In this document: positions 1 to 1,117 of the stretch, in pieces
How positions within the stretch are numbered: position 1 is the stretch's first letter
Layout of the letters: each line of letters begins with the position of its first letter
Source of the DNA: an uncultured Gammaproteobacteria bacterium
GTDB taxonomy: Bacteria; Pseudomonadota; Gammaproteobacteria; Steroidobacterales; GCA-2729495
Length of the DNA: 64,000 nt
Assembly (NCBI GenBank): GCA_937921935.1
Contig: CAKZWQ010000007.1
Location: 1 to 64,000, forward strand
Direction: 5' to 3'
Made by a program: the position numbers and the translations under genes
Notes under the pieces: generated by a model
Told to the model about the DNA's origin: nothing
Seen by the model: only the letters and a program-made list of their open reading frames with translations
Databases searched by the model: none

Positions 1-163
1 ACGAGAATGTTAGACCGGTCGTATTGAGGCTGCCACCATCCGTTGAAAATACAACGTCACCTCCAGATTCAACAGCGGTAATAATTACAGCTGCGTTCGC
101 TGTTCCAGTTATCTAAAGCATCGCAGCGAGGACGCCCGCACAAATAAATCGAGTTCCCTTCAT
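1..163 (-). pseudogene. N-terminal part of a PEP-CTERM-type secreted protein paralog with an in-frame TAG in the signal peptide; runs off the window start
   Basis: Reverse complement reads MKGTRFICAGVLAAML*ITGTANAAVIITAVESGGDVVFSTDGGSLNTTGLTFS, aligning with the 536..1117 product (AAVVVTAAESGGDVILSTSPGGSLDLSGLTFF). ATG at 163..161, TAG at 115..113. Confidence 0.7.
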
Positions 164-182
164 GATAGAAACACCACTTGTA

Positions 183-197
183 TGGCGCCAAGCGCCA
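183..197 (-). promoter_or_regulatory. 5' leader hairpin B of the leftward paralog (TGGCGC-TTG-GCGCCA)
   Basis: Perfect 6-bp stem about 20 nt upstream of the ATG at 163; matches the palindrome at 506..521. Confidence 0.5.
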
Positions 198-222
198 GTA
201 ATTCTACTTCGTATAAATTTTG

Positions 223-235
223 GGACGACCCGTCC
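223..235 (-). promoter_or_regulatory. 5' leader hairpin A of the leftward paralog (GGACG-GGT-CGTCC)
   Basis: Perfect 5-bp stem; equivalent position to hairpin 470..481 of the rightward paralog, with compensatory base change. Confidence 0.5.
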
Positions 236-241
236 TGAAGA

Positions 242-270
242 TTGCGTCATCGGGAAAGTCGTTAACTAAA
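242..270 (-). promoter_or_regulatory. Conserved upstream element, copy 1 (TTTAGTTAAC-N5-TCCCGATGACGCAA-type, read leftward)
   Basis: Plus strand TTGCGTCATCGGGAaagtcGTTAACTAAA; near-identical inverted copy at 433..462. Confidence 0.65.
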
Positions 271-432
271 ACCTACCAGCGTCGCTGGCCATGACAGGTC
301 AATATTCGCGCCTTATCCAATAAACGGTCAATCGGAGATTATGTATACAACTCTGATGCCCCACGTAACGTCCGCCTATCGGCAATCCATGCCGATTATG
401 TCGCCTTGCCCGGGGCCACTGTCGGGAGTACA

Positions 433-462
433 TTTAGTTAACGGATAGTCCCGATGACGCAA
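433..462 (+). promoter_or_regulatory. Conserved upstream element, copy 2 (TTTAGTTAACggatagTCCCGATGACGCAA, read rightward)
   Basis: Inverted near-identical copy of 242..270; ends 74 nt before the ATG at 536, versus 79 nt for copy 1. Confidence 0.65.
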
Positions 463-469
463 CCTTCTG

Positions 470-481
470 GGCCGGTCGGCC
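470..481 (+). promoter_or_regulatory. 5' leader hairpin A (GGCCG-GT-CGGCC)
   Basis: Stem-loop at the same position as 223..235 relative to its gene. Confidence 0.5.
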
Positions 482-505
482 AACAACTAACGAATAGTGG
501 GAAGA

Positions 506-521
506 ACGGCGCTAGCGCCGT
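506..521 (+). promoter_or_regulatory. 5' leader hairpin/palindrome B (ACGGCGCTAGCGCCGT)
   Basis: 16-nt perfect palindrome, 15 nt upstream of the ATG at 536. Confidence 0.5.
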
Positions 522-535
522 AAGGTGAAATTCCT

Positions 536-1117
536 ATGAACCTGAAACTCATCGGGTGTGCTTGCGCATGGGCCATTGTCCTCGCGATTAGTCCAGCTCG
601 GGCCGCGGTAGTAGTCACTGCAGCAGAAAGCGGTGGTGACGTTATCTTAAGCACCTCTCCTGGAGGTAGTCTCGATCTATCTGGGCTAACCTTTTTCAGT
701 GATAGCACTTGCAATTCCTCGGTCTTTCCATCGATTGCTACTTTCTTATTGGGTGGCGCTAACGAGGCTCCGTGTGACACTTATCGTGGTTCTATTTTCG
801 GGCCCACGGACTTTGGTTCTGGGGGTATAACTTTCTCAACCAATGGGTCGGGCGATATTTTTGGTCTTTCTCTCGGCGGGCCACCTACTGTAATTGTTCC
901 CGATTCGTATGTATCGGGCGATCTATTAAGCGGGACATTAACTTTCACCGGTGAATCTCTCGCAAACCTCGGCTTAGTGTCGGGCAGCTACGCATGGTCC
1001 TGGTCCAGCGACTCGATTACGCTTAACGTAGTTGCGCCCATCCCTATCCCCGCTGCTATTTGGTTGTTTGGCTCCGCGTTGGGGCTGCTTGGCTGGATGC
1101 GTCGGCGGGCGAGCTGA
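536..1117 (+). CDS. PEP-CTERM sorting domain-type secreted protein
   Basis: N-terminal signal peptide; C-terminal APIPIPAAIWLFGSALGLLGWMRRRAS (P-rich motif, TM helix, basic tail). Confidence 0.8.
   Translation: MNLKLIGCACAWAIVLAISPARAAVVVTAAESGGDVILSTSPGGSLDLSGLTFFSDSTCNSSVFPSIATFLLGGANEAPCDTYRGSIFGPTDFGSGGITFSTNGSGDIFGLSLGGPPTVIVPDSYVSGDLLSGTLTFTGESLANLGLVSGSYAWSWSSDSITLNVVAPIPIPAAIWLFGSALGLLGWMRRRAS

Follow-up and report, generated by a model that had tools for sequence, protein, structure and literature searches.

Two divergent PEP-CTERM-type genes at the start of a 64,000-nucleotide stretch of DNA from an uncultured gammaproteobacterium (the window) are each preceded by a copy of the same sequence block in mirror-image arrangement. 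This raises the question of what the block does. An earlier note took it for a conserved upstream DNA control region shared by exosortase-sorted proteins. Here we ask how far the block recurs, where it lies relative to promoter and gene, and whether it is better understood at the level of DNA or of RNA.

A mirrored block precedes two paralogous genes

The features of the region are as follows.

1–163, minus strand: 5′ part of a paralogous PEP-CTERM-type gene, the remainder lying beyond the contig start (open reading frame)
183–197, minus strand: second leader hairpin H2 (TGGCGCTTGGCGCCA; folding and sequence)
220–264, minus strand: predicted leader hairpin H1, with P1 stem ACGAC..GTCGT (model R2, 32.5 bits, rough E-value 2.6e-6)
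242–253, minus strand: conserved core CCGATGACGCAA (sequence)
270–275, minus strand: −10-like hexamer TAGGTT (TGGTAGGTT), 18 nt upstream of GATG and preceded by TG at a distance of one base (direct reading)
394–402, plus strand: GATTATGTC, possible upstream activator site common to a subset of promoters (sequence)
406–434, plus strand: sigma70-like promoter TTGCCC-17-TACATT, predicted transcription start at about 440 (promoter scan)
440–484, plus strand: predicted leader hairpin H1 (model R2, 28.3 bits, rough E-value 6.7e-5)
451–462, plus strand: conserved core CCGATGACGCAA (sequence and leader alignment)
505–522, plus strand: second leader hairpin H2 (GGCGC..GCGCC), just 5′ of the ribosome-binding region (folding)
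536–1117, plus strand: PEP/VPLPA-CTERM type secreted protein of 193 amino acids, C-terminus PIPIPAAIWLFGSALGLLGWMRRRAS (open reading frame)

The plus-strand product scores 22 bits against TIGR03370 (VPLPA-CTERM) in hmmscan, just below the cut-off of 25.35, and in the genome search the segment at 1040–1111 lies above the cut-off with 25.8 bits. Translation of the minus-strand gene gives MKGTRFICAGVLAAML*ITGTANAAVIITAVESGGDV, the in-frame TAG standing at codon 17, within the signal peptide. This stop codon, and the truncation of the gene by the contig start, suggest a possible pseudogene or an assembly error.

Direct reading of the sequence bears out the positions previously assigned to the mirrored block, 242–270 and 433–462. 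The minus-side copy consists of TTGCGTCATCGGGA (242–255), aagtc (256–260) and GTTAACTAAA (261–270), and the mirror copy of TTTAGTTAAC (433–442), ggatag (443–448) and TCCCGATGACGCAA (449–462). This match is far from chance; when the first 1,200 bases were shuffled, a 14-base inverted match of any kind appeared in 3 of 2,000 shuffles. The spacing from core to ATG, formerly given as 74 and 79 nt, needs correcting to 73 nt on the plus strand (ATG at 536) and 78 nt on the minus strand (ATG at 163). The likeness does continue downstream of the block, as had been claimed, and the two leaders align with 76 identical bases out of 109 against 93 out of 158 in the coding parts, so the non-coding part has been held more strongly. 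The GTTAAC/TTTAG part of the block is peculiar to the window pair, with partial presence in the copy on contig C43; the general part of the element is CCGATGACGCAA and a variable stem around it.

The core recurs before PEP-CTERM genes in one family

The search for the motif at other PEP-CTERM genes of the host genome, which the earlier note had proposed, revealed its recurrence in front of further such genes. TCCCGATGACGCAA has exactly six exact matches in the 3.04 Mb genome, comprising both window copies and copies on contigs C40, C43, C54 and C64. Complete genes with a PEP/VPLPA-CTERM end follow the plus window copy and the copies on C40 and C54, the minus window copy precedes the paralog fragment, and the genes downstream of the copies on C43 and at C64:113 are cut by contig ends. 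Members with one or two changes are found before PEP/VPLPA-CTERM genes on C25, C21 and C42 and at a second C64 site; C4 also carries the element, upstream of a putative gene. The core lies upstream of 7 of the 13 TIGR03370 matches in the genome, and the remaining matches (C65 twice, C5, C11, C16 and C54:81) have no core or are truncated or doubtful. The element is common to many, not all, of the PEP/VPLPA-CTERM genes of this organism. As a separate observation, an intergenic repeat (GTCCGCTTTGGGTCGTTAGCAGAC / CTGCTTTCGGCCAAAAGCGGACATTC) occurs at about 1185–1215 of the window and at about 180–300, 1150–1240 and 2440–2480 of locus L013; its copies turn up close to contig ends, where they may interrupt the assembly.

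In 99 relatives, occurrences of the 12-mer CCGATGACGCAA cluster in the organism's own genus (g1) and in genus g6, with up to 15 copies per genome and a count of 0 for the reversed-pattern control; across the class its counts are at background. Loci fetched from genera g1, g2 and g6 provided 57 assessable copies, meaning those that no contig end truncates. In 41 of them a PEP-CTERM-type open reading frame, its end called by sequence pattern and not by profile, lies at most 330 nt downstream in the sense orientation. An antisense PEP-CTERM frame occurs at only 2 of the 57, one being the divergent pair of the window. Some of the other 16 copies are chance matches inside long reading frames, and a few stand before other or unassigned genes. 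Two custom models of the element, R1 and R2, whose E-values are rough, give strong matches confined to a single gammaproteobacterial family (f1). Outside this family, R2 has two single weak matches in the order, with no PEP-CTERM gene found downstream, and no match in 398 further genomes sampled from the phylum. The association of the element with PEP-CTERM genes is strong, not exclusive, and the counts in the host genome and in the three genera uphold the suggestion that exosortase-type proteins share a regulatory element.

Since the two window products are paralogous, the mirrored block could simply reflect one gene and its leader having been duplicated in inverted orientation not long ago, the case that the earlier note set against its own proposal. 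That reading is refuted by the recurrence of the core, which stands at many unlinked places and before otherwise different proteins, and it also sits poorly with a leader identity that exceeds the coding identity; we give it next to no probability.

The element lies directly behind a predicted promoter

In a sigma70 matrix scan of the leaders, scores peak sharply where the −10 hexamer ends about 16–20 nt before the GATG of the core. The mean score in the 16–19 nt bin is 3.34 versus −0.84 in shuffles (standard error 0.48). The window promoter at 406–434 is weak in the strict scan, which misses it as a single site, and the aggregate support is strong. A start about 7 bases after the −10 hexamer would fall in the 5′ side of the H1 stem P1, so that the mRNA is predicted to begin with this hairpin. 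On the 3′ side of H1 comes A-rich DNA, often a second hairpin without fixed sequence, and then an AAGGGG ribosome-binding site. The predicted 5′ leader position, the sense orientation and the coherent gene set are features of a cis-regulatory leader RNA.

Further upstream, ATTATG/CATAAT occurs in 9 of 52 promoters, in every case between −58 and −67 relative to the core GATGACGCAA and including 394–402 of the window. This site (GATTATGTC in the window) looks like an activator site 5′ of the −35 hexamer, and DNA-binding protein regulators may act in addition to the leader RNA in a subset of genes. An inverted repeat, ATCGGCA-N5-TGCCGAT, is also present at 377–398, just 5′ of the plus-strand promoter and overlapping the GATTATGTC site.

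A known sequence shared by many proteobacterial PEP-CTERM genes is the PrsR/sigma54 box (Haft 2006, PMC1569441), in which a PrsR enhancer motif ending in TTTACA accompanies a sigma54 promoter; RpoN dependence has been shown for pepA (PMC9850573). The host genome encodes PrsR (710.6 bits) and an exosortase (C34:22314–23051, E = 9e-55), and the distance from motif to ATG resembles that of Haft 2006 (PMC1569441). It is nevertheless very improbable that the block is this box. TTTACA occurs in 3 of 44 leaders versus 4 of 44 reversed and is absent from 163–536 of the window, GG at the −24 place is found in 1 of 44 leaders, at odds with a −24 GG / −12 GC promoter, and a sigma70-type promoter stands at a fixed distance instead.

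The flanks of the core covary as an RNA stem

When leaders are aligned on the core, CCGATGACGCAA is almost invariant, an invariance partly owed to searching with exact letters (the model searches turned up other cores, few in number), and the flanks have no fixed sequence. The flanks pair with each other as a stem, P1, for example ATACCG/CGGTAT, ACGACT/AGTCGT, CCGGC/GCCGG, ATGTCC/GGACAT and TTCGGCG/CGCCGAA. The fairest test of covariation uses 44 sites selected on core sequence and downstream gene, with pairing playing no part in the choice. In none of 20,000 permutations did swapped flanks of this set pair as well as the matched ones (z = 5.4), values that overstate independence owing to the relatedness of the sequences. 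All six P1 pairs show two-sided changes among 15 seed leaders, and the covariation score over 47 distinct rows is 0.55 versus 0.19 when shuffled and at most 0.12 with the partner slid, bearing in mind that the seed set was picked partly for pairing and that alignment A2 was fitted to the model, so that alignments A1 and A2 lean towards structure. A conserved structure supported by covariation is what a cis-regulatory leader RNA should possess.

An inner pairing, CGA:UCG, is common and shows one-sided variation only, making it less sure, and several leaders (L023, L052 and L095) have no good P1. Folding agrees with the comparative picture, with z-scores of −1.42 (SE 0.16) for H1, −0.70 (SE 0.19) for the H2 region and −0.06 (SE 0.16) upstream of the promoter, the last being no better than shuffled sequence. 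In the window, the minus copy scores 19.2 bits with R1 and its hairpin also forms in folding. The plus copy has a weak P1: its outer stem is degenerate (CGGAT against GGTCG), its R1 match is limited to core positions 13–28, and the minimum free energy fold of its leader lacks P1.

We looked for a general intramolecular partner of the loop and found none (13.2 versus 12.1 in shuffles). Long-range pairing with the start-codon region was rejected as a general feature, having only a slight excess and no common site; single leaders do contain long loop matches to this region, as in that of the window gene, where CCGATGA matches TCATCGG.

Since the hairpins have variable stems and several copies are close to contig ends, the element might also be a mobile or recombination hairpin of the integron attC or REP type. 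Such an origin is highly improbable here. The conserved sequence lies in the loop and not in arm core sites, spacing to promoter and gene is fixed with sense orientation, and we saw neither empty sites nor copies away from promoters.

In five leaders the core forms one arm of a predicted terminator

Most leaders lack a terminator. In five, a predicted intrinsic terminator with the core as its 5′ arm precedes the PEP-CTERM frame. Three are in the host genome (C64 near 955, C42 near 6945 and C21 near 760) and two in the related genome G001. In an example, the core runs into a hairpin and U-run, GACGCAAAACCCCCGCTTCGGGGGCTTTGCGTTTTTTTT. The three that were folded reach −18.6, −22.2 and −21.0 kcal/mol, with z about −3. 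The stems differ, being CCC/GGG in the host genome and GCGC/GCGC in G001, and the GACGCA arm is kept, a combination suggesting that the conserved strand acts as RNA and that these five members work by attenuation. At locus L048 of G001, two PEP-CTERM genes lie side by side, and in each the core is followed immediately by a GACGCA..TGCGTC terminator.

These leaders bear on two other readings of the core. The first, closest to the mechanism implied by the earlier note, is that the core is a transcription-factor site overlapping the start region of PEP-CTERM promoters. Fixed spacing to the promoter, a long invariant core and a regulon-like gene set would all suit such an operator. The core is not palindromic, however, its orientation is nearly always sense, it is kept as a terminator arm in the five leaders above, and the flanks without fixed sequence covary as a stem. 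The block sits immediately 3′ of the predicted promoter, where the mRNA is expected to begin, and its flanks covary; both disfavour an upstream DNA mechanism, and we regard an operator as unlikely.

The second is that the ATG of CCG-ATG-ACG-CAA is an upstream start codon, opening a short leader peptide (MTQ...) whose translation regulates either the terminator or the gene behind it. In all five leaders with a terminator this frame stays open across it, and one variant core has GTG for ATG. On the other hand, no residues are conserved past MTQ, no ribosome-binding site is seen 5′ of the core ATG, and the median distance to a stop is 14.5 codons, below that of the +2 frame (22). The variant cores (CCGATGATGGAAC, CCGATGACGCATC, CCGATGGCGCAAC, CCGGTGACGCAAT and GATGACGCCA) change amino acids (GCG, ATG, GAA, CAT and CCA), and none of the changes is silent. 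A leader peptide is quite unlikely on these grounds.

A cis-regulatory leader RNA as the proposed explanation

We consider it probable, judging from the sequence comparisons, that the block is a cis-regulatory 5′ leader RNA and not a protein operator. A sigma70-type promoter would start the transcript at the foot of P1, which would comprise 4–8 bp of any sequence and the short inner pairing CGA:UCG, so as to display UGACGCAA in the loop. In most copies H1 would be followed by an A-rich linker, often by the second hairpin, and then by the ribosome-binding site of the PEP-CTERM gene. We infer that the element is transcribed and regulates the gene behind it, and that its loop is bound by one partner; a single trans-acting RNA-binding protein, small RNA or ligand most likely makes contact at the conserved strand. 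Such a partner would set many exosortase-type surface proteins together, after transcription start. Transcription attenuation would fit the five terminator leaders, and the others may act via translation or mRNA stability. It is probable that surface-protein genes of three related genera are controlled through the element, as an RNA switch or landing site not described before.

A more specific version, which we put forward tentatively as a possibility with the odds against it, is a lineage-specific riboswitch-like class of about 40 nt. Its loop UGACGCAA would sense an exopolysaccharide-linked signal, either a cyclic dinucleotide or some other, and the class would switch up to a dozen or more exosortase-sorted proteins, some by terminator remodelling.

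Comparison with known systems

One of the closest known parallels is the c-di-GMP-I (GEMM) riboswitch. The GEMM consensus contains the letters GACGCAA, which the leader element has in common with it, a likeness that may be chance. The leader element is one small hairpin, unlike the larger GEMM fold, and cmscan gave no match to RF01051 (c-di-GMP-I) at the leader loci. The host genome has five c-di-GMP-I riboswitch matches of its own (C5:94119, C66:14685, C11:15993, C29:32596 and C17:81189), none of them at the PEP-CTERM loci examined. A cmscan of eight loci against Rfam (4,227 families, E up to 5) returned four weak matches below gathering threshold, none at the element. The placing of a structured leader RNA before PEP-CTERM genes is common to both, as c-di-GMP-I riboswitches precede PEP-CTERM/VPLPA-CTERM genes in Methylophaga, another gammaproteobacterium (PMC12530212). 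Apart from c-di-GMP riboswitches, we found no PEP-CTERM leader RNA in the literature.

Five leaders resemble attenuators in having an intrinsic terminator between promoter and gene, built with the conserved strand; unlike attenuator leaders, the remaining majority dispense with it. The ops/JUMPStart element of RfaH is a short conserved transcribed element soon after the promoter of cell-surface genes. The leader element is likewise short, conserved and predicted to be transcribed shortly 3′ of a surface-gene promoter, and differs in its variable, covarying stem. RfaH/ops antitermination was considered and rejected for the host: its genome (G000) encodes a single NusG-domain protein and no RfaH-like paralog, which makes an RfaH-type factor unlikely.

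From the PrsR/sigma54 box the leader element differs in motif, promoter type and RNA-level anatomy. Many PEP-CTERM genes have long upstream regions beyond that box, for which further elements were predicted (Haft 2006, PMC1569441). The leader element is a concrete candidate for such a further element in one family of Gammaproteobacteria, and a candidate RNA motif for Rfam. As a compact RNA leader common to sequence-diverse surface proteins, it would offer a way to test how bacteria coordinate biofilm-type proteins of a dispersed family.
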